From: a virus
DNA length: 31,962 bases
Reading direction: 5' to 3' (one strand)
Virus record (IMG/VR): IMGVR_UViG_3300009086_000060
Span: 1-31,962 of that record
Under the pieces are notes generated by a model that worked only from the letters and a program-made list of their open reading frames with translations, was not told where the DNA came from and did not search any database. The translations under genes and the position numbers were made by a program. Shown piece after piece: positions 13,455 to 31,962 of this stretch (its first letter is position 1; every line of letters begins with the position of its first letter).

Positions 13455-13457
13455 ATA
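13450..13457 (+). promoter_or_regulatory. T4-type late promoter core
   Basis: AATAAATA fits the NATAAATA late-promoter core of T4-like phages. It overlaps the stop codon of the giant gene and sits 31 bases before the next ATG. Two more copies sit in the other large gaps of the structural block, which makes chance less likely in this AT-rich sequence. Confidence 0.55.
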
Positions 13458-13480
13458 CACTAGCAGGAGTAAACAAACTA

Positions 13481-14092
13481 ATGATTAATGAAAACAGTGG
13501 CGTATATTTACAAGGACATATAAAGATTCACAATCCTGAATCTGGTGAAGTTTTTGTAGACAAAAAGAACGCAATACATTACGAAAATATGAGTATTGCA
13601 TTAGCAGAGAGTTTGGGCAATTCAGGACAAGGCCCAATCGCAGAGATGAGCTTTGGTAATGGCGGTACAAATGTTGACCCAACCGGAATTATTACATATT
13701 TGACACCAAATAGTACCGGCACAAATGCAGGATTATATAACCAAACATTTACAAAAATTGTAGATGATAGAAATAAGAATAATATTGATCCTACTAGAAA
13801 CAAAATTGAAACTAGACACTTAAATGGTACAAACTATACTGATATTTTAGTTACATGTTTACTTGATTATGGTGAACCAGATGGACAAGATGCTTTTGAT
13901 ACTGCCACTGATCAAGATGCGCTTTATGTCTTTGACGAATTAGGATTACGTTCTACAAGTTCTACAGGAAGTTTAGGCGGAGGTAGACTGCTTACCCACG
14001 TTGTTTTTCATCCTGTACAAAAATCATTAAACAGACTTATACAAATTGATTATACTGTTAGAGTGCAAAGTCTAAGCGGAGGTAATTCGTAA
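13481..14092 (+). CDS. Small putative virion structural protein (203 aa)
   Basis: A 203-residue protein with no recognised catalytic motif and no membrane segment or signal peptide. It is rich in Gly, Asn, Thr and Asp, with predicted beta character. A glycine-rich stretch (SLGGGRLL) near residue 165 precedes a C-terminal beta segment. The start is supported by GCAGGAGT about 10 bases upstream. The stop overlaps the next gene as TAATG, implying translational coupling with the collar-domain fibre gene. Its place between the giant structural gene and the tail fibres suggests a baseplate, connector or fibre-associated role. I do not recognise the family. That the product is structural is an inference from position and composition. 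Confidence 0.7.
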   Translation: MINENSGVYLQGHIKIHNPESGEVFVDKKNAIHYENMSIALAESLGNSGQGPIAEMSFGNGGTNVDPTGIITYLTPNSTGTNAGLYNQTFTKIVDDRNKNNIDPTRNKIETRHLNGTNYTDILVTCLLDYGEPDGQDAFDTATDQDALYVFDELGLRSTSSTGSLGGGRLLTHVVFHPVQKSLNRLIQIDYTVRVQSLSGGNS

Positions 14093-16182
14093 TGCCTTAT
14101 ACCGTTAGATTTACTGACAACATTAATAAGGGTGAGCTCATTGTTGAAGACAGAGAAATTAATACTGATACAAGTTTAAGATTTCCTGGAAAACAAAGTA
14201 CAAGTTACGGCCAAGATATTGCTGAAAACTTTTTACACTTATTAGAAAACTTTGCTGCACCAAATCCACCAGCTAATCCTGCTGAAGGACAAGTTTGGTA
14301 TGATAATTCGACAACTGTTAATCAACTTAAAGTTTATGATGGAACAAACTGGGTTGCAAGCGGCGGTGTTAAAAAAGGTAATAATCAACCTGATATAGAT
14401 ACTAGTATCAAAGGCGACCTTTGGGTTGATACTGCTAACCAACAATTATATCTTAATAATGGCGGAGCATGGATATTAGTAGGACCTGAATTTAGTCAAG
14501 GGCTTGCTACAGGTGTAAGAGCAGAGCAAATTTTAGGAACAGATGACCGATTATACACAATATTAAGAATTGAAGTTGATAATAATCCAGTAGCAATTGT
14601 TTCGCAACAAGGATTTACACCAAAAGTTACAATTAGAGGATTTACAAAATTAAGTCCTGGGTACAATTTAAGCACAAGAAATTTTGAAAATGGTGTACCT
14701 AAATACAACGGTATTGCACAAAGTGCAGAATCTCTTGTTATAAGCAATTCTAATGTTCCTGCTGAAAATTTCCTTAGAGGAGATGTTAACAGCACAAGTA
14801 CTAGTACCTTGAAAATCAAGAATAACCAAGGTATTACTGTAGGTGAAAACGGACAAGTTACTATAGGCGCAGCAAATGATCGTGCTTTGATACGAAATAA
14901 CTTTACAGGTGCAAGTATAGACGTACAACTTAAAGAAGCGTCAGGTAATTACAAAACTATAATTCGAACAATTAATGATTCTGTAGGTATTGCTAATGAA
15001 GATCCGCAAGCAACTTTAGATGTTTCGGGAGATTTAAAGGTTTTAACTAATGTTAGTATTTCTGGAACAGACGATGCTGACGTACTATTTAATGATGATT
15101 ATTCCTCAGGAGCATTAGTGTTAGCTGGCGGCGCAAGCATTGCAGGTAATATGAAAGTAGCAGGAGATACAACATTTGCATCACAGATAAAAGTTGCAGG
15201 TAACATATCTACTGATCCTGATTTAGATGCTGCTAGTCTTCCTACTTTAACTGGATTTAGTTTAATCGAAGCAACTAGATTCTCAGGAGTATTTGACGGT
15301 ACATTTGAAGGTACAGTTACAGGTGCTTCGTCAGAGGCATCAAAACTAACAAACGCAACTGAATTTAGGATGTTAGGTGATGTTAGTTCTGAATCGTTTA
15401 CATTTGACGGAGCAGGATCGCTTATTAAAACATTTACTACAAGTATTGCTCCAGGATTTGTTTCTGATAAACCACTGACAGATACAGTTGAAACTAGTGA
15501 CGAAATATTAATTAATAGAGTAGTAGGAGATCAAGACGGTCTACATAGGATTACACAAGCTAATCTTATTTCTACTGTACCAAGAAATCCTGTTGGTATG
15601 ATTGTTCCATTTGCTGGATTAATAGCTCCAGCGGGATGGTTAATTTGCGATGGTAGAGAAATACAAATACAAGTATACCAAGAATTATTTAGTATTATAC
15701 AATATAATTTTAAAGATGCAAGTCAGCTAGTAAATTCTTTAGCAACACATTTTGCATTACCAGATTTTAGAGGAAGATTTTTACTAGGTGCAGATACAAT
15801 GGGCGGCGTCCCGGCACAAACAACACAGAATGTTGCTGCAAGTTTTGTAGGCGGAAAAGCAGGCACTGAGAGTAAAACAATTAAGAAAAATAACTTACCT
15901 GCACACGAACACAGTTTAGTTTCACCGGGCGGCATACAACATTATGCTATTAGAGATGATTTACCGGCTGAAGAGGATCAAAGTAATAACGTTCCGTCAT
16001 TAAGTATACCAACAGGTGCAGAAAACGTAAGTGGTATACCATCATCAGGTCAAATCCGAGGCGGCGGTATAGATGCTAATGATCAATATAACACTGTAGA
16101 TAACGAACTCGTAGGTAGAAACTTAGATATTATGCCTCCCTATGCAACTGTTAATTATATTATATTTGCAAACAAGGAATAA
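14092..16182 (+). CDS. Tail-fibre protein with phage tail-collar domain (696 aa)
   Basis: Residues 1-180 form the N-terminal module shared with the next two genes. It has two GQVWYD / GDLWVD..N..LY motifs (about 65-75 and 107-120), each followed by a W near a Gly-Pro. The middle (about 250-480) looks like repetitive beta stalk (ATLDVSGDLKV and similar). The C-terminus is a phage tail-collar domain: NPVGMIVPFAG...PAGWLICDG starts at 499, PDFRGRFLLGAD lies at 557-568, and the protein ends in PPYATVNYIIFA. Collar domains occur in T4 gp12 and related short or distal tail fibres that contact the host surface. The ATG overlaps the upstream stop, and a GGAGG at 14078-14082 supports it. It is probably a trimeric fibre acting in adsorption. 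The family assignment is firm; which fibre it is remains uncertain. Confidence 0.88.
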   Translation: MPYTVRFTDNINKGELIVEDREINTDTSLRFPGKQSTSYGQDIAENFLHLLENFAAPNPPANPAEGQVWYDNSTTVNQLKVYDGTNWVASGGVKKGNNQPDIDTSIKGDLWVDTANQQLYLNNGGAWILVGPEFSQGLATGVRAEQILGTDDRLYTILRIEVDNNPVAIVSQQGFTPKVTIRGFTKLSPGYNLSTRNFENGVPKYNGIAQSAESLVISNSNVPAENFLRGDVNSTSTSTLKIKNNQGITVGENGQVTIGAANDRALIRNNFTGASIDVQLKEASGNYKTIIRTINDSVGIANEDPQATLDVSGDLKVLTNVSISGTDDADVLFNDDYSSGALVLAGGASIAGNMKVAGDTTFASQIKVAGNISTDPDLDAASLPTLTGFSLIEATRFSGVFDGTFEGTVTGASSEASKLTNATEFRMLGDVSSESFTFDGAGSLIKTFTTSIAPGFVSDKPLTDTVETSDEILINRVVGDQDGLHRITQANLISTVPRNPVGMIVPFAGLIAPAGWLICDGREIQIQVYQELFSIIQYNFKDASQLVNSLATHFALPDFRGRFLLGADTMGGVPAQTTQNVAASFVGGKAGTESKTIKKNNLPAHEHSLVSPGGIQHYAIRDDLPAEEDQSNNVPSLSIPTGAENVSGIPSSGQIRGGGIDANDQYNTVDNELVGRNLDIMPPYATVNYIIFANKE

Positions 16183-16192
16183 GGAAAAATAA

Positions 16193-18049
16193 ATGGCATA
16201 TCAAGTAAACAAAACAGACGGTACACTACTTGTAGATTTAATCGACGGGATTATTGATACAAGTACTACAGATTTAAGTTTAGTAGGTAGAAACTACAAA
16301 GGATATGGTGAATCTTTCAATGAAAACTTTGTAAAACTTTTAGAAAATTTTTCTAATCCAAACGAACCAGTAAGTCCAATACAAGGACAACTTTGGTATG
16401 ATACTAGCGAAAACAAACTTAAAATTTATGACGGAACAGTATTTCAAAGTGCTGCGGGTAGTTACATCAGTAACTTACAACCTAGCGGTGCTATACAAGG
16501 AGATACTTGGTACGATACAACAAAAAATCAATTTTACTTATACTCTGGTTTAGAGTGGACATTAATAGGTCCATCTTATACTAAAAATCAAGGGCAAACA
16601 GGTGTATTTGCAGACACTATATTTGATAGCGGACTACGAGGACGCACAGTATTAAAACTTTTTGTAAACAATTCCTTACAAGCAGTAATAAGTGCAGGCA
16701 CAGACTTCAATCCTAACCCTTTACCTGGAAACATAATTTCTGAATTAGTAACAGAGTCTAATCCTGCAGGAACTATTAAACGTGGAGTAAATATTCTTCC
16801 TAGTACTAGTGACACAATTGATGATTTTAAGTTTAGAGGAACATCTCTTAACTCTGAAAATTTAGTTAGTGCTGTAGGAGAAATTATTCCTGAATCTAGA
16901 CTGTTGAAGAATGACGAAAATGGAGTAATTCAAGGTAGTTTAGAACTGCAATCAAGCCAAGGATTAACAGTAGGTGTTAACGGCGAAACAACACATGTTA
17001 TTGAAAATGGTTATACTATACGAAATACTAGAGCAAATCAAGATTTTAATATTGTAGTTAACTCTAGTGGCGGCGTGTTAACATCTTTAAGTCAGTCAAA
17101 CGCATTAACTATTAAATCTAACACACAACGAGTTGGTATTTTTAACGGTAATCCTAGCTATAACTTAGATGTTACTGGAGACGTGCGTGTTACTGGAAAC
17201 TTAACAGTTGAAGGCGATAGCGTAACAACTAATGTCGAAACTGTAGAAGTTGAGGACAAAAACATTGTACTTGGTAACGTTACTACTCCTACAGATCTTA
17301 CAGCAGCAGATGGCGGCATTACGTTAAAAGGTGCTACTGACAAAACTTTTAATTGGGTAAACGGCAGCGATAGTTGGACGTCAAGTGAAAATATTGATTT
17401 AGCAAACAATAAATCTTACAAAATTAATAATGTTAATATTTTATCACAAACAACAATAGCAAGTAGTGTTGTTAACAGTAATCTACAAAACTTAGGCACA
17501 CTAACACAACTAAATGTTGACACTACTAGAATAGACGGAAGTACACTGTCAAGATCGTCTGGTACAGGATTTACAATAAACGTAGGCGGCGACATTGATG
17601 TTTCTGCTAGTAAAATTACAAATTTATTAACACCAACAGCCGGTGCAGACGCAACTAATAAAACCTACGTAGATACACAAAACTTAACACAGCGAATTAT
17701 ATTTGGACTTGATACAACAGGTTGGGCATCAACAACAAACGATCAGATAATTTTATTGCTAACTAATTTATATCCTGTGGCACAAGTAAACAACGGTAAA
17801 CAAGCAAGAGTAGCTTGTACATTCTATGGTAACCAAACTACTGATCCGATAAACATATCAGGATCTACAGTAGTAAGTACTGTAGATGTTGAGCCTGTAG
17901 GTGGCGCAGGAAGTCCAGTTACAGTAGTACAAGGTATTACATTACCAAATTCACTTACAACAGCAGTAACGCTAGTAGTTTCACGAGAAACTAGAGCATT
18001 TATTGTTGCTAACGGAGTATGGACAGTAGATGCAAGTCCTAGTCCATAA
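16193..18049 (+). CDS. Tail-fibre-like structural protein, second paralogue (618 aa)
   Basis: The N-terminal ~180 residues repeat the module of the preceding gene: NENFVKLLENF, GQLWYDTSENKLKIYDG, then GDTWYDTTKNQFYLY. At about 320-430 there is a segment of the type GDVRVTGNLTVEGD...EVEDKNIVLG...ADGGITLKG, a stalk domain I associate with marine T4-like phage fibres. Near 480 a T..ADATNKTYVD motif, common in phage fibre stalks, leads into a C-terminal ~130-residue beta domain of unknown type that ends without a collar domain. AAGGA at 16181-16185 supports the ATG, with only 10 bases separating it from the previous stop. It is probably co-transcribed with the collar-domain gene. Its distinct tip domain suggests a different ligand or a different fibre segment. 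Confidence 0.82.
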   Translation: MAYQVNKTDGTLLVDLIDGIIDTSTTDLSLVGRNYKGYGESFNENFVKLLENFSNPNEPVSPIQGQLWYDTSENKLKIYDGTVFQSAAGSYISNLQPSGAIQGDTWYDTTKNQFYLYSGLEWTLIGPSYTKNQGQTGVFADTIFDSGLRGRTVLKLFVNNSLQAVISAGTDFNPNPLPGNIISELVTESNPAGTIKRGVNILPSTSDTIDDFKFRGTSLNSENLVSAVGEIIPESRLLKNDENGVIQGSLELQSSQGLTVGVNGETTHVIENGYTIRNTRANQDFNIVVNSSGGVLTSLSQSNALTIKSNTQRVGIFNGNPSYNLDVTGDVRVTGNLTVEGDSVTTNVETVEVEDKNIVLGNVTTPTDLTAADGGITLKGATDKTFNWVNGSDSWTSSENIDLANNKSYKINNVNILSQTTIASSVVNSNLQNLGTLTQLNVDTTRIDGSTLSRSSGTGFTINVGGDIDVSASKITNLLTPTAGADATNKTYVDTQNLTQRIIFGLDTTGWASTTNDQIILLLTNLYPVAQVNNGKQARVACTFYGNQTTDPINISGSTVVSTVDVEPVGGAGSPVTVVQGITLPNSLTTAVTLVVSRETRAFIVANGVWTVDASPSP

Positions 18050-18051
18050 TG

Positions 18052-18059
18052 AATAAATA
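18052..18059 (+). promoter_or_regulatory. T4-type late promoter core
   Basis: AATAAATA lies in the 41-base gap between two tail-fibre genes, 39 bases before the ATG at 18091. It matches the NATAAATA core also found at 13450 and 19595. Confidence 0.55.
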
Positions 18060-18090
18060 TACATAGTAAACATATTAGGGGAAGCACGAA

Positions 18091-19575
18091 ATGGCTTATC
18101 AAATTGATAGATTTAACAGGACACCACTTGTTACAGTTCAAGACGGTACTTTGGATGAAACAACAGATATAAAATTTGTTGGTAAAAACTACGCTGGATA
18201 CGGCGAAATACACAATGAAAACTTTTTGTTTTTATTAGAAAATTTTGCAGGAGCAAATGAGCCACCTAAACCATTAAGCGGTCAAGTTTGGTATGATAGC
18301 TCTAGCGATAAAATGAAGTTTAGAGATGGTAACAGCAGTTGGAGAACAATTGGTGGTTCTCAGACAAGTTCTACACAACCGACAGGACTTGCACAAGGTG
18401 ATTTTTGGTGGGATACTGCTAACGATCAGTTATATGTTTACAACAGTACAGAATTTATTTTAATTGGTCCACAAGGAGCAGGCGAAAATACTACTCAAAT
18501 GGTTAGTAAAACTGTTTTAGATACTTCAGATATAGCCAAAGCAGTAATTATTTCGACTGTAAATAATGTTCCAATTTCTGTATTCTCCCCTGATACATTT
18601 ACAATTAAAAACGTTGCTGGAAATACCATTGATGGATTTACTGTAGTAAGACAAGGTATTACATTACGTGATTCAGATGGTGCTACAGGCGAAACTACTT
18701 CGGCATATAGATTCCACGGTACAGCAACTGATACTGATAGATTACAAGGTTTATCAGCATCAAGTTTTGTACAATCTGGAGATCCAACATTTGATCAACT
18801 TATTGAAGCATCACAAGGAATGATTATAGACGGAGTGTTTAGTTTAACTACTGAAGCTGGCGCCGCAAATGATACAGGCGTACTTAAAAACACTAGTGGC
18901 GCTTCTAACGAAATTAAATTTATAACACAAAATGCATCAAGCAACAATGTACATTCTTTAACAATAACAAGTGCTGGATTAACACCTGCTGTTACTGAAA
19001 CATTTAATATAGGTGAAACTAACTTAAAATTTGATGAAGTACATGCAGTTTCGTTTAAGGGCATTGCAGATAATGCAAATCAATTACGTAACGGGAATAC
19101 AGGTAGTGCTTATACATATGCTTCTGAATCATCTACAGGTGGCACAATTGCAATTAGAACAGCCGACAATAAAATACTTGCAGATGTATTTGAAGGTGTA
19201 GCAACAAGTGCTAGATTTGCTGACTTGGCAGAGAAATATACTACTGGAGAAACACATCCAGTAGGAACAGTTATGCACGTATGCGAAGATGTCGCACATG
19301 AAATTGCTCCGTGTTTACTAGATAGTTTTCCAGTAGGCGTTATATCAGAAAATCCTGCTTATTTAATGAATAGCGAATCAAGCGGACAAGCAATTGCGTT
19401 AGAAGGACGTGTTCCGGTAAGATGTATTGGCGAAGTTCGAAAAGGTCAAATTGTCTATGTAGATGCTGATGGTACTGCTAGTACTAAGTATAATGGAAAT
19501 CCTAGAGTTGGTGTTGCATTAGAAACCAGTTTAGATATAGCTGAAAAGCTAGTTGAGTGTATTTTAAAGTTATAA
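18091..19575 (+). CDS. Tail-fibre-like structural protein, third paralogue (494 aa)
   Basis: The N-terminal module again matches the two upstream genes: MAYQ start, NENFLFLLENFAG, GQVWYDSSSDKMKF, then GDFWWDTANDQLYVY. A shorter middle leads to a C-terminal domain from residue 377 to the end that begins ADLAEKYTTGETHPVGTV and contains GVISENPAYLMN, ALEGRVPVRCIGEVRKGQ and GVALE. C-terminal domains of this kind occur on marine phage structural proteins and recall, without proving, the self-cleaving or chaperone-type ends (Peptidase_G2-like) of some fibres and spikes. The start is preceded by AGGGGAAG, and a late-promoter core lies just upstream. A role in the tail or fibre is likely; cleavage of the C-terminus is only a possibility. 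Confidence 0.8.
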   Translation: MAYQIDRFNRTPLVTVQDGTLDETTDIKFVGKNYAGYGEIHNENFLFLLENFAGANEPPKPLSGQVWYDSSSDKMKFRDGNSSWRTIGGSQTSSTQPTGLAQGDFWWDTANDQLYVYNSTEFILIGPQGAGENTTQMVSKTVLDTSDIAKAVIISTVNNVPISVFSPDTFTIKNVAGNTIDGFTVVRQGITLRDSDGATGETTSAYRFHGTATDTDRLQGLSASSFVQSGDPTFDQLIEASQGMIIDGVFSLTTEAGAANDTGVLKNTSGASNEIKFITQNASSNNVHSLTITSAGLTPAVTETFNIGETNLKFDEVHAVSFKGIADNANQLRNGNTGSAYTYASESSTGGTIAIRTADNKILADVFEGVATSARFADLAEKYTTGETHPVGTVMHVCEDVAHEIAPCLLDSFPVGVISENPAYLMNSESSGQAIALEGRVPVRCIGEVRKGQIVYVDADGTASTKYNGNPRVGVALETSLDIAEKLVECILKL

Positions 19576-23482: not shown

Positions 23483-23511
23483 TTGACAACTTCTTAATTA
23501 TACTGTATAAT
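23483..23511 (+). promoter_or_regulatory. Sigma70-type promoter (early-type)
   Basis: TTGACA at 23483-23488 and TATAAT at 23506-23511 are both perfect consensus and are separated by 17 bp. Transcription would start near 23518, about 16 bases before the GTG at 23534. Host sigma70-type promoters drive early genes in T4-like phages. None this good was noticed in the structural block. It is the only clear promoter for the glycosyltransferase/radical SAM cassette. Confidence 0.8.
23497..23511 (+). promoter_or_regulatory. 15-bp palindrome covering the -10 box (possible operator)
   Basis: ATTATACTGTATAAT is a perfect inverted repeat with 7-bp arms around one central T. It contains the whole -10 element. 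A dimeric repressor bound here would block the promoter. AT-rich sequence makes such palindromes easier to get by chance, so this is tentative. Confidence 0.3.
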
Positions 23512-23533: not shown

Positions 23534-23881
23534 GTGGACGAAAAACTATCAAAAGCATTAGATTTCAGTAATGTAATGCTAACTCATCAAGCACAAAAAA
23601 ACAATCTAAAAGAGCAATACTATGCTAGTATTGACACGTATCATAATGGATCAAAATTTCTAGCAACTCCTGCATTAATTTCTTTTTGTACATCGTTACT
23701 ACAACTTAAACAAGAAACTGCAATACTAATAGATTGTAACGATTTGCCGTGTAATATTGAAAATCTTAAACAGTTTACAGATGAGTTAGTTGATTGTTAT
23801 GCAACAGCTACAAACGTATACCTAAATGAATATAATAATATAAAAGTAAAACGGTCTATAACGGATATTATTAATGACTAA
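23534..23881 (+). CDS. Small protein of unknown function heading the cassette (115 aa)
   Basis: A 115-residue protein with a GTG start, placed directly behind the sigma70-type promoter with a strong ribosome binding site. It looks mostly helical: an N-terminal charged helix (DEKLSKALDF...HQAQKNNLKEQYY), a middle LLQLKQETAILIDCNDLP with Cys74 and Cys79, and a Lys/Ile-rich end. There is no signal peptide, membrane segment or known motif. Its stop overlaps the next start by 8 bases, so it is translationally coupled to the first glycosyltransferase-like gene. As the first and strongest-initiated gene it could be a regulator, an accessory subunit or a substrate for the downstream enzymes. None of these can be chosen from sequence alone. 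Confidence 0.7.
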   Translation: MDEKLSKALDFSNVMLTHQAQKNNLKEQYYASIDTYHNGSKFLATPALISFCTSLLQLKQETAILIDCNDLPCNIENLKQFTDELVDCYATATNVYLNEYNNIKVKRSITDIIND

Positions 23882-24722
23882 TGGATGTTTATTATTTGCA
23901 TACAATAATGGATTATTTGATTATATTATGCAGGCAGATTTTCTAGCCGCTAGAATAAAAAAACATTTAGATATACCTACATCAATTGTTACAAGTGATG
24001 TTGAATACGCTAATACTTTTACAAATTTTGATAAGGTAATATATAAACCTAATTCAAGTTCTAACAAAAGAAAGTTTCACTGCGGAGCGTTTTATAATAA
24101 ATCCGCAGCGTTTAAAAATGATACAAGAGTTTATGCGTACGAACTTTCGCCTTATGATAAAACATTATTACTAGATACAGATTATATTATATCTAATGAT
24201 AGTTTTAAAAATTGTTTTCAAGTAAACGATGATTTTCTAATTTATAAAGACGCTACTAATATTAATACACAGTTTTCTAAAACAACTGAGTTTAGTAAAA
24301 TTAGTGATACAAGTATAGATTTTTATTGGGCTACGTGTGTATATTTTACAAAAACAGAACGTAACAAAATCTTTTTTGATCTTCTCCAACATATACAAGA
24401 AAATTGGCATCATTATAAATCTGTTTATAGATTAAGTTATATTACATATAGAAACGATTTTGCTTTTAGTATTGCTATACATATAATGAACGGATTTCAA
24501 CAAGGGTCATTTGCAAAACAAATGCCGGGTAAAAAATATTATATTACCGACAGAGATCACTGCCATAAAATTGATGATAATAATCTTACTTTCTTGCTTG
24601 AAAAGAAAACACATCCTGGAGAATATTTCCTATCTAAAACAAAAAATATAAATGTGCATGTAATGAATAAGTTTAGTTTGGGAGAATTGTTAAATGAATT
24701 TTACAATGTTAGCTCAGAATAG
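23874..24722 (+). CDS. Glycosyltransferase-like protein, DTD type (282 aa)
   Basis: The N-terminal half has GT-A-like features: an initial beta strand and helix (GCLLFAYNNG), SIVTSDVEY around 38-45, and a hydrophobic strand ending in the acidic motif LLLDTDYII, with DTD at 101-103. In GT-A enzymes this acidic motif binds the metal and the nucleotide-sugar. The downstream gene has the matching segment VVIDTDMLI, so the two are probably distant paralogues. The C-terminal half is less clear, with aromatic segments such as FYWATCVYF near 150 and a Lys/His-rich stretch near 222-245. No membrane anchor is seen, so it should act in the cytoplasm. The donor and acceptor are unknown. The start overlaps the upstream stop by 8 bases and has only a weak ribosome binding site, which is consistent with coupling. 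The glycosyltransferase assignment is from motif and context, not from a search. Confidence 0.65.
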   Translation: MTNGCLLFAYNNGLFDYIMQADFLAARIKKHLDIPTSIVTSDVEYANTFTNFDKVIYKPNSSSNKRKFHCGAFYNKSAAFKNDTRVYAYELSPYDKTLLLDTDYIISNDSFKNCFQVNDDFLIYKDATNINTQFSKTTEFSKISDTSIDFYWATCVYFTKTERNKIFFDLLQHIQENWHHYKSVYRLSYITYRNDFAFSIAIHIMNGFQQGSFAKQMPGKKYYITDRDHCHKIDDNNLTFLLEKKTHPGEYFLSKTKNINVHVMNKFSLGELLNEFYNVSSE

Positions 24723-25524
24723 TACGGACGTAGATTACGTACAACAAGCATGTGTTTCTGCAATGAGTATAAGACATACAAACCCTACAAGTAAGATCTG
24801 TTTAATTACTAATGACGCAGTTCCAAGTAAGTACAAAGAACTATTTGATGCAGTAGTAGAAATTCCATGGGGAGACTCTGCTCACAAATATGAATGGAAA
24901 ATACATAACAGATTTAAGATTATTCATGCATGTCCTTTTAGCGACACTGTTGTTATTGATACTGACATGCTAATACTAAATGATCTTTCTAACTGGCAAA
25001 CACATTTTGAAAAGTATGACTTTTGGATATGTAATAACGTAAAAACATATCGCAACGAGATAGTTAATAATCAGTTTTATAGAAAAAAATTAAATAAATT
25101 TAAACTTCCTAATGTGTATTACGGACTGCATTATTTTAAAAAGTCTAAATTTGCATACGAATTTTATGGATTGCTAGATATTATTGTTAATAATTATAGC
25201 GACTTTTTTAATCTGCATAATATGAATTTACAAAATTTTGCAAGTATGGATATTAGTAGTAGTCTTGCTACAGCAATATTAGATTGTGAATCTGTTATTA
25301 CTAATAATAGTCACTATGCACCTATGTTTACTCATATGAAGGCAAACATACAAAATTGGCAAGGACTAAAAGATAGTTGGCAAAAAGAAGTTGGCACTTA
25401 TCTAACAGATGATGCACAACTATATGTTGGCAATTACAAACAAAGTAATATATTTCATTATACAGAAGATGATTTTATTACAAGTGATGTAATTAACACA
25501 TATGAAAAAATAATTGGAATTTAG
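24694..25524 (+). CDS. Glycosyltransferase-like protein, GT8-like DTD type (276 aa)
   Basis: The fold pattern fits a GT-A glycosyltransferase: CVSAMSIRHTNP and KICLITND (residues 20-41) at the N-terminus, EIPWGD near 56-61, KYEWKIHNRFKI near 65-76, then VVIDTDMLI with DTD at 89-91. The NRFKI followed by a D.D strand is reminiscent of GT8-type enzymes. The C-terminal half contains GLHYFKKSKFAYEFY near 143 and a late His-rich part (HYAPMFTHMKANIQNW near 207). It starts 29 bases inside the upstream gene, supported by GGAGA at 24681-24685, and ends directly against the next ATG. It is likely cytoplasmic and likely transfers sugar from a nucleotide donor. The substrate is unknown, and the family assignment should be tested by profile search. 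Confidence 0.68.
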   Translation: MNFTMLAQNSTDVDYVQQACVSAMSIRHTNPTSKICLITNDAVPSKYKELFDAVVEIPWGDSAHKYEWKIHNRFKIIHACPFSDTVVIDTDMLILNDLSNWQTHFEKYDFWICNNVKTYRNEIVNNQFYRKKLNKFKLPNVYYGLHYFKKSKFAYEFYGLLDIIVNNYSDFFNLHNMNLQNFASMDISSSLATAILDCESVITNNSHYAPMFTHMKANIQNWQGLKDSWQKEVGTYLTDDAQLYVGNYKQSNIFHYTEDDFITSDVINTYEKIIGI

Positions 25525-26130
25525 ATGCGATTTAAAATACCTAAAACAAAAAAAACTGAGCCATTATATTATAAGGTATATTACGAAAAAGCCACTGGTC
25601 AAATTATTTCTATTTCAATTAAAGACAAGCCGTCTTTAGATACTCATTTTACAACTACGTTTAACGAAGTATGCGAATTTATAGACGGAACTAAAAGTTT
25701 AATTAATTATAAAGTTACATACGATTTACAAAAAGCAAAATTCCATATTGTACATAAAGATGATAAGATTGTATTAGATGTAGATAATCTAATACATAAA
25801 ATTACCCAGTCTGGTCCAGCACAACTATGTATTATAAAGGATAATATATTAAACGAATGGCAACTACACCTTGATCTTAACTTAACAGCAAAAAATAATA
25901 TTAATAATGCTGGAGTTTTAGACGAAATATTATGGTTTAGTATAACACAAGAAAATAATCCAAATATACTATACAGACATTTCTCAGCTAGTATGCACGA
26001 ACTTATAAATGAGCAAACTATGTCTTTTAAATTTTTAAATCACAAGGAAACAGATGTAACCAAATACAGTATATATACTAATAAGAGACTAGTATCCTAT
26101 TCTAAAAGAGAAATACATGAGCCAAATTAA
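25525..26130 (+). CDS. Beta-rich protein of unknown function within the cassette (201 aa)
   Basis: A 201-residue protein whose ATG follows the previous stop without a gap. It has alternating hydrophobic and polar segments typical of beta sheets (YYKVYYEKATGQIISISI near 15-32, CIIKDNILNEWQLHLDL near 101-117, EILWFSI near 134-140). There are only two cysteines (51 and 101), and no catalytic motif, membrane segment or signal peptide is visible. The phrase YYEKATGQI resembles short conserved motifs in small proteins of marine phages, but I cannot name a family. Its constant tight spacing between glycosyltransferase-like genes suggests that it works with them, for instance as an accessory or acceptor-binding subunit. 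That is inference. The stop overlaps the next start by 14 bases. Confidence 0.68.
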   Translation: MRFKIPKTKKTEPLYYKVYYEKATGQIISISIKDKPSLDTHFTTTFNEVCEFIDGTKSLINYKVTYDLQKAKFHIVHKDDKIVLDVDNLIHKITQSGPAQLCIIKDNILNEWQLHLDLNLTAKNNINNAGVLDEILWFSITQENNPNILYRHFSASMHELINEQTMSFKFLNHKETDVTKYSIYTNKRLVSYSKREIHEPN

Positions 26131-27043
26131 AATTTTAGATTATGACATTATATATTTGTCGTACGATGAACCAAATGCTGATAAAAACTATGCAGATTTA
26201 TTAACTAAAGTGCCATGGGCAAAACGTGTACACGGTGTAGAAGGAAGTGACGCTGCACACAAAGCATGTGCAAAATTATCAGAGACAGATAGATTTATTA
26301 CAGTTGATGGTGACAATATTGTACATCCTAAGTTTTTTACACAAGTGCTAGATCTCTCTAAGCATCCTAATTTAGAAAATAGTGTAATAAGTTGGTGTGG
26401 CAAAAATATTATTAATGGGTTAATGTACGGCAACGGTGGGTTAAAGTGCTGGCCAAAGAATTATGTGTTGAATATGAAAACACATGAAAATGCTGATCCA
26501 AATAATTTGCAAGCACAGGTAGACTTTTGTTGGGATCTAGAATACATACAGCAAAATAGTTGGTATAGTGATGTGTATAATAACGCAACACCACATCAAG
26601 CATGGCGAGCTGGATTTAGAGAGGGTGTTAAAATGGCACTTGACCAAGGTATAAAACCTACTAAAGATGATTTTTTACGAGGGCATTGGAAAAACTTACA
26701 TCGACTGTGGATATGGCTTATGGTTGGTGCAGATGTTGACAACGGTAAATGGGCAATCTATGGCGCCCGTGAAGGCCTGTACAAAACAATGTGTACTGAT
26801 TGGGATTTTGTAAATGTAAGAGATTTTGAATATCTTAATCGCATGTGGAACGAAGTTGAACCAACAGTATCAATGAATGGATTAGAAGAGTCGATTGAAG
26901 ATTACGGTATTAAACTTATTAACGAACTTGAGATTCCTATTGCTGAAGAATGCCTAAATGCACAGCAAAGTAAATTCTTTAAAACAGTATATCAGAATCC
27001 TAGTAGAAATCCTCAACAGCAGTTTATAATTGATCCAGAATGA
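26117..27043 (+). CDS. Glycosyltransferase-like protein, DGD type (308 aa)
   Basis: The N-terminal core has YDIIYLSYDEPNADKNY (9-25), KRVHGVEGSDAAHKACAKL (36-54) and a strand ending in FITVDGDNIV with DGD at 64-66, which fits a GT-A metal and nucleotide-sugar site. Further landmarks are a YGNGGLK segment near 103-109, AWRAGFREG in the middle, and GKWAIYGAREG near 210-221. All are matched one by one in the truncated gene at the right edge of the window, so the two are paralogues. This copy lacks the ~100-residue N-terminal extension of that gene. Its start overlaps the upstream stop by 14 bases, and its stop overlaps the next start (ATGA). It probably acts in the cytoplasm on a nucleotide-sugar. 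It could also be a non-transferring nucleotide-sugar-binding fold, since no search was possible. Confidence 0.62.
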   Translation: MSQIKILDYDIIYLSYDEPNADKNYADLLTKVPWAKRVHGVEGSDAAHKACAKLSETDRFITVDGDNIVHPKFFTQVLDLSKHPNLENSVISWCGKNIINGLMYGNGGLKCWPKNYVLNMKTHENADPNNLQAQVDFCWDLEYIQQNSWYSDVYNNATPHQAWRAGFREGVKMALDQGIKPTKDDFLRGHWKNLHRLWIWLMVGADVDNGKWAIYGAREGLYKTMCTDWDFVNVRDFEYLNRMWNEVEPTVSMNGLEESIEDYGIKLINELEIPIAEECLNAQQSKFFKTVYQNPSRNPQQQFIIDPE

Positions 27044-28452
27044 GCAAAGACCAGAGAGGTGACGAAGTTGAACTACTTAAAGGAAAATACCAAAGCGTAT
27101 ACTTCGAAAGTAGTAAACAATTATTAGAAGGACTTAACAGTGTAAGTCCTAGTTTCTGTTTAGCTAAATGGTATAGTGTTAGTTTACATTTACCAACCGG
27201 TAGAACACATAGTTGTTATCATCCTCCTAGCCATCATATTCCTTTAGAAGAACTTGCTGCATCGCCTGACGCACTACACAACACACAGCATAAAAAAGAA
27301 CAACGTACTAAAATGCTTAAAGGCGAACGACCTAAAGAGTGCGAGTTTTGTTGGGCATTAGAAGACCAAGGTAATATGAGCGACAGAGCATATCGTAGTA
27401 AAGACGTTTACGAGCCCGATCTTATTGAAGCAGCACAAATAGAAGAAAACCCAAAGCCTAGATACTTAGAAGTAAACTTTAATCAAGCATGCAATCTTAA
27501 ATGTGCGTATTGCAGCCCTCATTTAAGTACAGAATGGCATAAAGAAGTAAAACAACACGGTGCTTATGAACTAATACATGGTAACCATAATGATCCTCGA
27601 TGGGTTGAACGCATGGGTATTAATAACTCACCAGAAAGTCCTTATGTAAAAGCTTTTTGGGAATGGCTTCCTGATGTATATTCTACACTAAAAACATTCC
27701 GAATGACAGGCGGCGAGCCTCTAATGGATAAAAACACATTTCGAGTGTTTGACTACGTAAAAAATAATCCACATAATAGTTTACAATTATCGATTACTAG
27801 TAATTGTTGTCCGCCTAAGAATCAATGGCAAAGATTTATGGATGATTTAGACAGTGTAACTGATAACGTAGATCATTTTATGTTATACTGTAGTCTAGAT
27901 AGTTGGGGAACACAAGCAGAATATATTCGTAATGGGCTAGACTTTGATATACTGTATAAAAATATACGAGAATACCTTACAAAAGGCAAAAATCACAGCC
28001 TTACATTTATTATAACTGCTAATTTACTAAGTTTACCTGGCTGGACAGAATATATAAAAAATATACTTGCATTGCGCAAAGAATTTAATACCGATAGGCA
28101 GTTAATTTGGTTAGATACTCCTATGCTACATGATCCTAAGTGGATGAGTATGCAACTAGCAAATGAGCATATGCTAACACCATTACTAGAAAGCATACAG
28201 TTTATGGAAGCAAACCCTGAAACTACTGTAAATAGGTATCAAGGATTTAAAGATTTTGAAGTTGATAAAGTCAGAAGACTTTATGAATGGGCAAACCAAC
28301 CATTAAATACAGTTGAAGAAATACAAGCAAAAATAAATTTCTATCTGTTTTTCAACGAACATGATAGAAGACGAAATACAAACTTACTAGAAACATTTCC
28401 TAGTCTTCAAGACTTTTATAACCAATGTAGAGAACAATATGAGCAGAGATAA
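27040..28452 (+). CDS. Radical SAM enzyme with N-terminal cysteine (twitch-like) module, copy 1 (470 aa)
   Basis: The radical SAM core shows the CxxxCxxC iron-sulfur motif at Cys151, Cys155 and Cys158 (NQACNLKCAYCSP), followed by TGGEP at 223-227 for SAM binding. Ahead of the core is an unusual N-terminal module with Cys40, Cys59, Cys101 and Cys104 in the contexts FCLAKW, HSCYHP and ECEFCWALED. Its four cysteines could hold an extra iron-sulfur cluster. This matches the layout called N-terminal twitch-domain radical SAM proteins. The protein ends with FFNEHDRRRNTNLLETFP near 433-450, shared with the next gene. Such enzymes cleave SAM to a 5'-deoxyadenosyl radical and modify peptides, sugars or other substrates; the substrate here is unknown. 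The ATG overlaps the upstream stop. It is a clear paralogue of the gene that follows. Confidence 0.85.
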   Translation: MSKDQRGDEVELLKGKYQSVYFESSKQLLEGLNSVSPSFCLAKWYSVSLHLPTGRTHSCYHPPSHHIPLEELAASPDALHNTQHKKEQRTKMLKGERPKECEFCWALEDQGNMSDRAYRSKDVYEPDLIEAAQIEENPKPRYLEVNFNQACNLKCAYCSPHLSTEWHKEVKQHGAYELIHGNHNDPRWVERMGINNSPESPYVKAFWEWLPDVYSTLKTFRMTGGEPLMDKNTFRVFDYVKNNPHNSLQLSITSNCCPPKNQWQRFMDDLDSVTDNVDHFMLYCSLDSWGTQAEYIRNGLDFDILYKNIREYLTKGKNHSLTFIITANLLSLPGWTEYIKNILALRKEFNTDRQLIWLDTPMLHDPKWMSMQLANEHMLTPLLESIQFMEANPETTVNRYQGFKDFEVDKVRRLYEWANQPLNTVEEIQAKINFYLFFNEHDRRRNTNLLETFPSLQDFYNQCREQYEQR

Positions 28453-29791
28453 ACGAGTAGATGAAGTAAAAGACAGACTAAACAAAGTAGGCTGCGGCTT
28501 TTGCACACAAAAATGGCTACATGAGACACTTTATCTTCATACTGGTGACAATCACAGTTGTTATCATCCGCGACCACATCATATTCCATTGGTAGAAATA
28601 CAAGATAATCCAAGTGCTTTACATAATACAAAATGGAAAAAGCAACAACGTAAAACTATGTTAGAAGGTGGCCGACCAGACGAATGTTACTATTGCTGGA
28701 ATATCGAAGACTTGCCTGGAGAACACCTTAGCGATAGGCATTTTCATAGTGCTAGTAGTTATGCAGAACCTATGATTGAAACACTTGCTGATATGCCTTG
28801 GAATAAAGATATAAATCCAAGATATTTAGAAGTTAGTTTTGGCAATGGTTGTAATTATCGTTGTGGATATTGTTCGCCGCAAGCTAGTACGCTATGGATG
28901 GACGAAATTAAAAAACATGGTAATTATGATTTAACATATAATCAATACGGTATTGACTTTTTAGAACACGGCACATACTATGGTCCTAAAGATGATAATC
29001 CTTATGTAGAAGCATTTTGGAAATGGTGGCCAAGTTTGCGTAAAGACCTTTGGACATTACGCATTACAGGAGGAGAGCCTCTAATGAATCCTGGTTCTAT
29101 GCAGTTTTTAGATTTACTAGAAAAAGAACCTGCTCCGCAACTAGAAATTAGTCTTAATAGTAACCTAGGAGTTACAACAAATAAAATAGATAAGTTTTAT
29201 GATAGAATAGACTCTTTAGTAGAACATAAAAAAATTAAACAGTTTAGTTTGTTTACAAGCATAGATACATGGGGTCCACAAGCAGAATATATGCGGACTG
29301 GTATGAACTTAGTACATTGGGAACGTAACTTAAAAGAAGCAATGCGTAGAGGATTTCAAGTAAATCTAATGTGTACTTTTAATGTCTTGTGTGTTACTAA
29401 CTTTAAAAGTTTATTAGAGAAAGTTTTAGAATGGCGAGAAGAGTTTGGCAAAGATGCTATTGGGTTTGATACACCGTATCTAAAAGAACCACATCATTGG
29501 ATGATTAATATTCTACCTGAAAGTTTCAATTCGTACATGGACGAAACATTAGAGTTTATTGACTCACACGGCGATAAATTTAAACCTAGCGAATATGAAA
29601 AATTTAAACGTGTTACAAATTTTATGAGAGAAAATCCAATTGACCCGTTAAAAATACAAAAAGGACGACGAGACTTTTATAGTTTTTTTAATGAAAATGA
29701 TAAACGTGTTGGACTAAATTTGTTAGAAGTATTTCCTGAATATACAGAATTTTACAATTACTGTAAACAAGTTTATGAAAATTACGGATAG
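28439..29791 (+). CDS. Radical SAM enzyme with N-terminal cysteine (twitch-like) module, copy 2 (450 aa)
   Basis: The CxxxCxxC motif lies at Cys138, Cys142 and Cys145 (NGCNYRCGYCSP), with TGGEP at 210-214. The N-terminal module has Cys22, Cys41, Cys83 and Cys86, with the same spacing as the upstream paralogue (18, 41 and 2 residues between them), plus an extra Cys19. Contexts match: FCTQKW, HSCYHP and ECYYCWNIED. The C-terminal FFNENDKRVGLNLLEVFP is also shared. The exact conservation of spacing while the rest has drifted suggests that both copies are active and hold a second cluster. The ATG overlaps the upstream stop by 14 bases and has AGAGAA before it. A substrate different from copy 1, or action as a paired complex, would explain keeping both. 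This is inference. Confidence 0.85.
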   Translation: MSRDKRVDEVKDRLNKVGCGFCTQKWLHETLYLHTGDNHSCYHPRPHHIPLVEIQDNPSALHNTKWKKQQRKTMLEGGRPDECYYCWNIEDLPGEHLSDRHFHSASSYAEPMIETLADMPWNKDINPRYLEVSFGNGCNYRCGYCSPQASTLWMDEIKKHGNYDLTYNQYGIDFLEHGTYYGPKDDNPYVEAFWKWWPSLRKDLWTLRITGGEPLMNPGSMQFLDLLEKEPAPQLEISLNSNLGVTTNKIDKFYDRIDSLVEHKKIKQFSLFTSIDTWGPQAEYMRTGMNLVHWERNLKEAMRRGFQVNLMCTFNVLCVTNFKSLLEKVLEWREEFGKDAIGFDTPYLKEPHHWMINILPESFNSYMDETLEFIDSHGDKFKPSEYEKFKRVTNFMRENPIDPLKIQKGRRDFYSFFNENDKRVGLNLLEVFPEYTEFYNYCKQVYENYG

Positions 29792-29796
29792 TACAA

Positions 29797-31023
29797 ATGT
29801 GGTCAGATAAAAATACTGTACAGATACATATGGAACTTACTAATGCATGTAATGCTGCATGTCCCATGTGTGTAAGATTCCATAATAACAGTCCGTTGAC
29901 AAGACCTGATTTAGAAATAGGTCAAATTACATTAGAGTTATTTAAAAAGTATATTCCTAACGATATATTAACACAAATAAATTTAATAATGTTTTGCGGT
30001 GTTCACGGCGATCCAGGTGTTGCTAGAGACACATACGAAATCTGTAAACATATTGCAGAAACATCGCCCAACACAAACATTATGATGAATTCTAATGGTG
30101 GCATGCGAACTCCAAGCTGGTGGTCTAAAATGGGTAAATTATTTTCAAAAAAGAAACACTGGCTAATGACATTTAGTATAGACGGACTTGAAAATAGTAA
30201 TCATTTATATCGTAGGAATGTTGAATGGAATAAATTAGAAGCAAATGTTAAAGCATTTACTCAACATAATCCAAGAAGTGCTTGGGATTTTTTAATTTTT
30301 GCACATAACGAACATCAACTTGAAGAAGCTAAAGCTCGCTGTAAAGAATTTAATATTACAGAATTTATTCCTAAAAAAGCACTAGGTGTAGACAACGGTG
30401 TTTCGCTAAAACGATTACCGGCATTAACTAAAGATGGCGAATTAGATTATTATATTGATGCTCCGTTAGATCCTAAGAATAGGAATTTAGAAAATCCAAC
30501 TGGTCCTGTAGAAGAACATTATCAATCTTTTGATAAAACTGATTATTATCTTAATAAAAAGAAAAAACATTTATCTATTAATTATTACCAAACACAAGTT
30601 GTAAAAGTGTATGATAATATTGATGACACTAAATGGGATAATGTAGAAATTAATTGTAAAAGTCATAAAACTTTTGGTACTGAAATATTTATAGATAATT
30701 TTGGGCGTGTAATGCCGTGTTGTTATGTAGGAACACACTTAAACGGCACATATACAAGTACTGAAAGTATGCAACTACATAAGGCACTAAATGATTATGG
30801 CTGGGAAAAGTTTGATCTTAACTTAAAACCATTAACTGAAATTTTATCAGAAGGACATTTAAATCGTGTGTTTGCCGATACTTGGAATTTAGAAAGTGTA
30901 AAGTGCGGCAAGATGGCATTTTGTGCAGACACTTGTGGTAAAAATTCTTCTCTTGATAGAATCTTCACTCATGAGGATATTGAAGATGCTACAAGATTTA
31001 ATTTACGGAATACAGATGTATGA
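29797..31023 (+). CDS. SPASM-type radical SAM enzyme (408 aa)
   Basis: The core begins almost at the N-terminus: VQIHMELTNACNAACPMC, with Cys18, Cys22 and Cys25 forming CxxxCxxC. In place of GGEP there is FCGVHGDPG at 66-74, a common variant in SPASM-type enzymes. Near 126-130 FSIDG matches a conserved core strand. The C-terminal part has a SPASM-like cysteine cluster: Cys287, Cys308 and Cys309 (RVMPCCYVG), Cys370, Cys376 and Cys380. The SPASM domain normally binds auxiliary iron-sulfur clusters in enzymes that modify peptides, sugars or proteins. It follows the previous stop by five bases and overlaps the next start by eight. It is not closely similar to the two upstream radical SAM genes, so the cassette holds two types of this enzyme. 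The substrate is unknown. Confidence 0.85.
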   Translation: MWSDKNTVQIHMELTNACNAACPMCVRFHNNSPLTRPDLEIGQITLELFKKYIPNDILTQINLIMFCGVHGDPGVARDTYEICKHIAETSPNTNIMMNSNGGMRTPSWWSKMGKLFSKKKHWLMTFSIDGLENSNHLYRRNVEWNKLEANVKAFTQHNPRSAWDFLIFAHNEHQLEEAKARCKEFNITEFIPKKALGVDNGVSLKRLPALTKDGELDYYIDAPLDPKNRNLENPTGPVEEHYQSFDKTDYYLNKKKKHLSINYYQTQVVKVYDNIDDTKWDNVEINCKSHKTFGTEIFIDNFGRVMPCCYVGTHLNGTYTSTESMQLHKALNDYGWEKFDLNLKPLTEILSEGHLNRVFADTWNLESVKCGKMAFCADTCGKNSSLDRIFTHEDIEDATRFNLRNTDV

Positions 31024-31962
31024 TATATTTTACATAGGTGATAACTCACCGCATCCTAATGCTAAACATGCTGATAGCTACGAGCATGCGAAGTCTATGT
31101 CGATGACTAAAATGTTTTGGTTAGTTTGGAAAGACTTACACGTCTTAGATAGCTTTGATTTTTTATATAAAGCAGACAACTTTAGTCTTGATGTTACACA
31201 TGTTTTTCGTAATGGCAATCATTATGACGGTGTAACGTTATTCAGTAAATCTTCACCAGTCTCAAAACGTGAAATAGATTATCGATTCTATGCAAGTAAA
31301 AAAGAATTAGAAATCACAGCATCAATGCCTAGTATGTACGACATTGTGTTTATTAGTTACAACGAACCAACAGCAGACGACAATTTTAAAGCCCTACAAC
31401 AACGTTTTCCAAGAGCAAAGCGAGTACATGGTGTAAAAGGCATACATCAAGCACACATAGCTGCTGCAAAGCTCTGTGACACCGATATGTTTTGGATCGT
31501 AGACGGTGATGCTGTTATAGTAGATGAATTTAATTTTGATTATCAAGTACCTAAATGGAATCACGATCATGTATTTGTGTGGCGAGCAAAAAATCCTATT
31601 AATGATATGGTATACGGCTACGGCGGTGTAAAATTATTTCCAACAAGACTCACCATTGACATGGATGTTACTAAACCGGATATGACTACAAGTATTAGTA
31701 GTAAATTTAATGCTATAAAGGAAGTATCAAATATTACATCATTTAATACAGGAGAGTTTGAAACATGGAAAGGCGCATTTAGGGAATGTACAAAACTTTC
31801 TAGTAAAGTAATTGATAGGCAAAAGAACGAAGAAACAGATAATCGTCTTCAAATTTGGACAACCATTGGAAAAGATCGCCCTTATGGAGAGTATGCTATT
31901 AGAGGTGCAAGAGCAGGCGCAGCATATGGAGCAGCAAATCAAGGCAACACCGAAGCGCTCAA
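31016..31962 (+). CDS. Larger glycosyltransferase-like protein, DGD type, truncated at the window edge
   Basis: The frame runs from ATG at 31016, eight bases inside the upstream gene, to the right edge, giving 315 complete codons with no stop. Residues 1-100 form an extra N-terminal domain (YDIFYIGDN, MFWLVWKDLHVLDSFDFLYK, THVFRNGNHYDGVTLFSK, REIDYRFY). Residues from 107 repeat the fold of the gene at 26117: YDIVFISYNEPTADDNF, AKRVHGVKGIHQAHIAAAKL, WIVDGDAVIVDEF (DGD at 163-165), YGYGGVKLFPT, WKGAFRECTK and GEYAIRGARAG. The core is therefore GT-A-like, with a probable metal-binding DGD. The extra domain may give acceptor specificity. The N-terminal domain also ends in K..EI..RFY, which looks conserved. 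Donor, acceptor and C-terminus are unknown. The closeness to the upstream gene suggests the operon continues to the right. Confidence 0.72.
   Translation, partial: MYDIFYIGDNSPHPNAKHADSYEHAKSMSMTKMFWLVWKDLHVLDSFDFLYKADNFSLDVTHVFRNGNHYDGVTLFSKSSPVSKREIDYRFYASKKELEITASMPSMYDIVFISYNEPTADDNFKALQQRFPRAKRVHGVKGIHQAHIAAAKLCDTDMFWIVDGDAVIVDEFNFDYQVPKWNHDHVFVWRAKNPINDMVYGYGGVKLFPTRLTIDMDVTKPDMTTSISSKFNAIKEVSNITSFNTGEFETWKGAFRECTKLSSKVIDRQKNEETDNRLQIWTTIGKDRPYGEYAIRGARAGAAYGAANQGNTEAL

Follow-up and report, generated by a model that had tools for sequence, protein, structure and literature searches.

Why should a phage carry glycosyltransferase (GT) and radical S-adenosylmethionine (SAM) genes directly behind its tail fibers, and what would the encoded enzymes make? 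Phage genomes are compact, yet the lineage of IMG/VR record IMGVR_UViG_3300009086_000060 keeps 4 to 19 radical SAM genes together with GTs beside the fibers. We analyzed this record over its full length (exactly 31,962 bases, GC 34%; here the window), which ends in a cassette of nine genes, g1 to g9, at positions 23534-31962. The cassette is built on a core of six genes kept in fixed order behind a promoter of its own, and it is quite probably one glycan-modifying biosynthetic unit. As to product and acceptor, we assign a probability of about 0.42 to a pathway that makes a sugar modified by radical SAM enzymes and transfers it to the phage's own fiber.

Gene content of the cassette

Every real gene in the window lies on the + strand, in the order 4483-residue structural protein, S, three P-type fiber/collar proteins, two F-type fibers, and the nine cassette genes (Table 1). 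A first-pass annotation of this DNA had described nine packed consecutive genes, and these open reading frames (ORFs) were found, with the correction that the contig end cuts the set: the record stops inside g9, so nine genes are a minimum. Overlaps occur at g1/g2 (8 nucleotides [nt]), g2/g3 (29 nt), g4/g5 (14 nt), g5/g6 (4 nt), and g6/g7 (14 nt), while g3 and g4 abut and gaps of 5 and 4 nt separate g7 from g8 and g8 from g9. The cassette encodes two GT family 8 (GT8)-like proteins (g2 and g3), two divergent GT-A-like proteins (g5 and g9), two N-twitch radical SAM enzymes (g6 and g7), a SPASM-type radical SAM enzyme (g8), and two proteins without assignment (g1 and g4).

The DTD, DTD, DGD, and DGD motifs reported earlier for four GT-like proteins were located in g2, g3, g5, and g9 (VDGDA in the last), and their proposed GT nature agrees with our searches, in which the g3 profile led to glycogenin-1, g2 proved homologous to g3, the g5 model ranked GT-A enzymes first (template modeling [TM] score of about 0.3), and g9 proved homologous to g5. 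The g2 and g3 families are paralogous (hhalign 99.9%, E value 7e-31), and the g2 DxD motif is invariant across 32 sequences. Single members of the g3 family match PF11051 (Mannosyl_trans3; 6.6e-5) and 1 of 30 matches PF01501 (Glyco_transf_8; 0.004), with the window proteins g2 and g3 themselves below the Pfam GT8 cut-off. By homology and the DxD motif, both belong with glycosyltransferase family 8, and we call them GT8-like.

The most conserved core gene is g5, whose relatives (n = 32) are 45 to 76% identical to the window protein and whose D64 and D66 do not vary across 33 sequences. Its AlphaFold model is confident (predicted local distance difference test [pLDDT] 87.8), and a Foldseek search with this model ranked GT-A proteins first (SunS/ThuS on top, then WrtF and HddC; E 1e-4, probability 0.99, TM score 0.25 to 0.35). 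Given the low TM score, just part of the fold is comparable, probably the nucleotide-binding half. A Che8 glycosyltransferase was among the best viral matches of g5, and neither g5 nor g9 reached the cut-off of a named GT Pfam family, their Pfam matches being weak only. The start of g9 is most likely the ATG at 31028 rather than the GTG at 30923; its second domain is a relative of g5 (hhalign of families, E 9e-41), and in larger relatives the frame with the second g5 match is mostly 650 to 860 residues long. Relatives also occur on bacterial contigs. Roseobacter genomes (Cribrihabitans, Ruegeria, and Tateyamaria; L184-L186, L188, L191) carry one g5 relative with 35 to 38% identity beside a conserved small gene, and contigs assigned to Bdellovibrionales and relatives (L179, L183, L189, L192, L193) carry relatives of g5, g9, and the N-twitch radical SAM enzyme, which in L192 lie among GT2 genes together with a QueC-like and an Asp/Asn hydroxylase-like gene.

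The first-pass annotation had counted three radical SAM enzymes of two types, in agreement with what we found. All three carry CxxxCxxC, which is invariant among the relatives of g6 and of g8; g6 and g7 pass NF033640 (curated cut-off, 170 bits), whereas g8, at 52.8 bits, is under the cut-off, hence not a member, and is of another type. The PF04055 cut-off is passed by g7 alone. Seven Cys are near-invariant among 59 non-redundant relatives of g6 (C40, C59, C101, C104, and C151-x3-C155-x2-C158); as judged from this pattern, three would bind the SAM cluster and the four N-terminal ones are fit for a second cluster. In g8, C18, C22, C25, C287, C308, C309, C376, and C380 are invariant in 32 relatives. 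By score and Cys pattern, g6 and g7 are thus members of the N_Twi_rSAM family (NF033640), with the difference that here they are fixed in a tail-adjacent phage cassette. In an isolated 255-kb Vibrio phage, K566 (L089:10042-21010), GT8 and GT4-like genes lie in among radical SAM genes similar in kind to g6/g7, together with a gene for a small structural-looking protein; this phage is a possible laboratory model.

The two genes left without identity earlier, g1 and g4, gave no assignment in any of our searches either. There was no convincing family match for g1, whose PDB and PHROG searches stayed at chance level, and PDB and fold searches with g4, the fastest-diverging core gene, returned chance-level matches only, none of them confident. 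In family, PDB, PHROG, and fold searches, g1 and g4 had no recognizable relatives outside the cassette.

Table 1. Features of the window and related loci
Feature	Position	Strand	Basis or remark
g1, 115 aa, mostly helical	23534..23881	+	always first cassette gene; F42, D67, P72 invariant in relatives
g2, GT8-like glycosyltransferase, D101-T-D103	23874..24722	+	homology to g3; glycogenin weakly, E 0.008
g3, GT8-like glycosyltransferase, D89-T-D91	24694..25524	+	profile matches glycogenin-1, E 5.7e-6
g4, 201 aa, beta-rich	25525..26130	+	AlphaFold2 model, pLDDT 91.3
g5, divergent GT-A-like protein, D64-G-D66	26117..27043	+	alignment, AlphaFold model, Foldseek
g6, N-twitch radical SAM, core radical SAM gene	27040..28452	+	NF033640, 317 bits
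g7, N-twitch radical SAM	28439..29791	+	NF033640, 314 bits; PF04055, 39 bits
g8, radical SAM, SPASM-like C-terminal Cys set	29797..31023	+	CNAACPMC; PHROG radical SAM, 6e-15
g9, two-domain g5 relative, DGD	31028..31962	+	truncated by contig end
Consensus sigma-70 promoter, TTGACA-17-TATAAT	23483..23511	+	12/12 matches; gap between last fiber gene and g1
Two F-type fiber proteins, 925 and 347 aa	19642..23479	+	directly 5′ of cassette; place kept in relatives
Tail module	3..19575	+	4483-aa structural protein (5′ end open), S (203 aa, gp204 family), three P-type fiber/collar proteins
CHxS cassette loci (other contigs)	L084:21909-28647, L085:14866-23015, L292-L307		tip protein beside SPASM radical SAM and cupin/2-oxoglutarate (2OG)-oxygenase-like genes

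A fixed core at the head of a large island

Contigs were selected from IMG/VR in three ways, by g3, by the upstream tail gene S, and by g7, all of which gather nearest relatives by construction; distant members were seen only via the S of Sinorhizobium phage Phosso. With g3 (best 80 of more than 585), g1-g2-g3 were adjacent in 76 contigs, the other four being three contig-end cuts and one insertion. With S (best 80 of about 600), 62 contigs held S and F, and of these 47 run into g1, 15 stop at F, and 0 deviate. With g7 (80 loci), 49/80 had g1-g2-g3 in order. Overall, the order fibers-g1-g2-g3-g4-g5-radical SAM is almost invariant in IMG/VR and recurs in well over 100 contigs; therefore, the arrangement is not due to chance. 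The first-pass annotation had proposed such a neighborhood survey as the check that could refute a single pathway, and the outcome was divided, since the g1-g5-radical SAM order recurs as stated, while in 12/80 of the g7-selected loci the block of g6/g7/g8-type radical SAM genes stands in other surroundings, without g1-g5. Likewise, its view of nine genes as a single pathway can be retained for g1-g5 plus the first radical SAM gene, which behave as a unit, but not for the rest: g6 is nearly always present, and g7, g8, and g9 are variable. We thus rejected the nine-gene set as an indivisible unit, the fixed part being g1-g5 and the first radical SAM gene only. These six genes are a small expressible set for finding substrates of the N-twitch radical SAM family and of the new GT-like family.

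The core is a fixed feature of a single lineage, and its sister lineages lack it or have other genes instead; of 16 contigs selected by the Phosso S, it was seen in one (L283) only. No phage of the INPHARED collection carried the cassette at the sensitivity used. Against 50,697 phage records, tblastn with g1, a g4-type protein, g5, and F gave no match, and with g7 it gave only Vibrio phages K566 and K567 (23%).

The window shows just the beginning of a large biosynthetic island. In related records of 165 to 275 kb, the radical SAM genes (4 to 19 in each) lie mostly within tens of kb behind g5. These extended islands also carry genes for UDP-sugar dehydrogenase, NAD epimerase, carbamoyltransferase, SGNH-like, and AMP-ligase proteins and, as judged by eye, methyltransferase-like, 2OG-oxygenase-like, and DegT-type aminotransferase-like genes. 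A natural-product-like cluster in phage was seen in L308-L311 (records of 200,843 and 236,366 bases), whose islands are tens of kb long and hold many radical SAM genes, many apparent 2OG-Fe(II) oxygenases, PP-loop ATPases, and amidinotransferase-like and aminotransferase-like genes.

A promoter of its own

In relatives, the gap between the fiber gene and g1 is about 56 nt, versus about -4 nt for a typical gap within the cassette. Over 73 non-redundant fiber-g1 gaps, the mean best match to the sigma-70 consensus was 10.52/12, compared with 8.12 (standard deviation, 0.09) in dinucleotide shuffles; at least 10/12 positions matched in 56/73 gaps, and the spacing was exactly 17 in 55 of these 56, with 16 and 18 allowed. 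Perfect matches just 5′ of + strand genes (240 loci) preceded g1 29 times, g9 10 times, F 7 times, and S or P 0 times. The identical consensus also precedes a QueE-like gene on the opposite strand in relatives. A T4-type late promoter, TATAAATA, was searched for and is absent from the + strand. Judging from this promoter sequence, the cassette is probably read by unmodified host polymerase, and we infer that it is most likely transcribed early. No terminator was predicted in the fiber-g1 gap of the window, so read-through from the tail operon is possible. The first-pass annotation had set the cassette directly beside the receptor-binding genes; the closeness is real, but with a conserved sigma-70 promoter in between, shared expression with the fibers cannot be assumed.

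Pairwise distances of g1-g4 correlate among themselves with r of 0.80 to 0.92, and with those of the adjacent fiber with r of 0.56 to 0.77. Having its own promoter and co-diverging in g1-g4, the cassette therefore has the marks of a self-contained biosynthetic unit.

Phage group and tail module

The giant structural protein and S have homologues in Agrobacterium phage Atu_ph07, Sinorhizobium phage Phosso, Pseudomonas phage PA5oct, and enterobacterial RaK2/Munch-like jumbo phages, and this homology marks the window as a genome fragment from a jumbo phage within the wide Atu_ph07/PA5oct/RaK2 group, from an uncultured aquatic lineage. Tail-module proteins matched PHROG 10938 (8e-135), PHROG 11259 (4e-71), and tail collar families. 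The F-type fiber is homologous to PA5oct gp360 (E 5.5e-40), whose annotation states detection by mass spectrometry. Some F residues, e.g., Y273 and N276, are conserved yet absent from the PA5oct F, a comparison resting on one outgroup.

A parallel cassette in sister phages

Atu_ph07 and Phosso have, in the same place behind gp204 and P-type genes, a cupin/JmjC-like protein, a SPASM radical SAM enzyme related to peptide maturases, a tail-like protein, and further radical SAM enzymes. The likeness to the window is a radical SAM cassette 3′ of gp204 and P-type genes; the difference is that the genes are others, without g1-g5 and not homologous to them. The tail-like protein is gp170 in Atu_ph07 and 289 in Phosso; it ends in CHSSCHASCHNSRSRR or CHTSCHASCHSSRSRR, following the pattern [VI]CHxSCHxSCHxSRSRR, and this tip is nearly identical among the proteins, whereas the remainder is divergent. 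A DNA pattern for the tip found 16 IMG/VR stretches, of which 15 encode such a protein, one being Atu_ph07 itself; most have a neighboring radical SAM gene and several have a P-type fiber gene. From its sequence, the CHxS cassette looks like radical SAM modification, of the type that acts on ribosomally synthesized and post-translationally modified peptides (RiPPs), of a fiber-tip peptide on a virion protein. By analogy, this suggests that radical SAM enzymes at this genomic place can act on tail proteins, and radical SAM cassettes have settled behind the P-type fiber gene more than once. We also tested whether F is homologous to the tail-like protein of the CHxS cassette and rejected this, the hhalign match not being significant.

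Proposed product and acceptor of the pathway

GT8-like, GT-A-like, and radical SAM enzymes in a core without membrane proteins, with sugar-nucleotide genes nearby, point to modified-sugar synthesis and cytosolic transfer. The proteins g2/g3, g5/g9, and the radical SAM enzymes would form a single pathway at the head of the large island; the GTs would transfer a chemically unusual sugar, tailored by the radical SAM, methyltransferase, dehydrogenase, epimerase, aminotransferase, and carbamoyltransferase enzymes of the island. Across 148 loci, no membrane segment was predicted in g1-g5, g8, or g9, leaving the core without a protein of flippase or polymerase type, and because all core enzymes are soluble, the acceptor is expected within cytosolic reach. 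Most likely it would be the F or P tail fiber/adhesin from the neighboring genes, so that virions would leave with a decorated receptor-binding apparatus. The fiber is slightly favored as acceptor by the fixed position, the soluble parts, and precedent (virion glycosylation in Che8 and Corndog; the CHxS cassette), and SunS/ThuS, peptide S-glycosyltransferases among the nearest solved structures to the g5 model, would fit glycan transfer. If the product does sit on the fiber, chemical modification would be a further means, beyond those already known, by which receptor binding is tuned in phages. Several findings weigh against this proposal: the conserved sigma-70 promoter points to separate transcription of the cassette and the late fiber genes; g1-g4 co-diverge less with the adjacent fiber than among themselves; relatives of g5, g9, and the radical SAM enzymes on Bdellovibrionales-assigned contigs lie among GT2 genes, as in cell-surface glycan loci; F proteins share no common modification motif, with C-termini unlike each other and Cys nearly absent; and PA5oct has an F-type fiber without any cassette.

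The same promoter, co-divergence, and GT2 surroundings favor a cassette that would remodel the host surface early, at the lipopolysaccharide (LPS) core or another envelope glycan, by which competing phages are excluded or the infected cell is protected. This is a possibility we take seriously without holding it probable; it would place the cassette among the largest superinfection-exclusion pathways known. The promoter is of host type, with the consensus found before the QueE-like gene, genes of SGNH and methyltransferase-like type are common across the island, chromosome-type relatives have a weak TMEM260-like O-mannosyltransferase match in their surroundings, and GT8 is a typical LPS family, such a role having been proposed for pelagimyophages (PMC7029224). 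Yet the core has no membrane GT, flippase, or polymerase; compared with a Gtr-type O-antigen system, with its flippase GtrA and polytopic GT, there is no multi-span membrane protein in the core and one such protein in a downstream ORF in 148 loci. Moreover, a large lineage retains the core strictly, unlike surface-switching genes, which usually differ by host; the cassette is linked to the tail module throughout; and the gene outlay, with up to 19 radical SAM genes, is very large. An improbable alternative is that the radical SAM enzymes modify a peptide or protein, by a RiPP-like cross-link, epimer, or hydroxylation in the fiber or in g1/g4, which the GTs then glycosylate. Twitch/SPASM radical SAM enzymes often act on peptides, the best PDB matches of g5 are glycopeptide S-glycosyltransferases, and the CHxS cassette of the sister phages is of this kind. 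However, the window clade yielded no precursor whose tip is conserved and rich in Cys or Ser, none of its loci has the CHxS motif, and the F C-termini speak against it as well; likewise, no RiPP-type arrangement, in which a precursor containing a conserved core peptide lies next to the maturase, was found in this clade, and a candidate exists in the other phages. GTs and radical SAM enzymes also occur in phage DNA hypermodification, and a QueE-like gene lies elsewhere in relatives, but the cassette is very improbable as a modifier of DNA or the nucleotide pool, as it has no DNA-modifying GT, TET, or thymidylate-synthase-like gene, its GT8-like proteins resemble protein, lipid, or sugar transferases, and sugar-nucleotide genes accompany it. 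Returning to the fiber as acceptor, the fullest version, in which a jumbo-phage lineage devotes an early pathway, including the new GT-A-like family of g5/g9, to making a radical SAM-modified sugar and placing it on its own receptor-binding fibers, paralleled elsewhere by the radical SAM-modified CHxS fiber-tip peptide, is on the whole unlikely.

Relation to known systems

GTs with radical SAM cassettes in phage host-recognition islands (PMC7029224) and a T4-like phage with 12 radical SAM genes (PMC5332604) are already published. The latter, environmental genome TARA_ERS488813_N000010, resembles the present case in having many radical SAM genes in one marine phage, which are discussed as iron-sulfur cluster metabolism; it differs in that the part of the article concerned with them describes no conserved GT core (PMC5332604). 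Virions of mycobacteriophages Che8 and Corndog are glycosylated by phage GTs (Freeman 2023, cited in PMC12363180), likewise an action on the phage's own virion, but on the capsid and not the fiber, and with no radical SAM enzymes reported in that citing account (PMC12363180). In the literature outside subscription journals and preprints, no description was found of the fixed core or its promoter, of the g5 family, or of the CHxS cassette; the core, promoter, and g5 family appear to be new.

A close likeness in layout is the host recognition cluster of pelagimyophages, in which GT8-type glycosyltransferases and radical SAM cassettes stand beside tail-fiber genes (PMC7029224). That cluster is hypervariable and lies between VrlC and gp14 in T4-like phages (PMC7029224), whereas the present core, found in jumbo phages of the Atu_ph07/PA5oct type, has six genes in fixed order and a separate promoter. 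The cassette thus shares the location by the fibers with GTs and radical SAM genes, but not the hypervariable, non-syntenic content, as its periphery alone varies. In L060, L062, L080, and L082, curli-like genes (CsgG-like and curlin-like, as judged by eye) lie 5′ of the radical SAM block, as in pelagimyophages.

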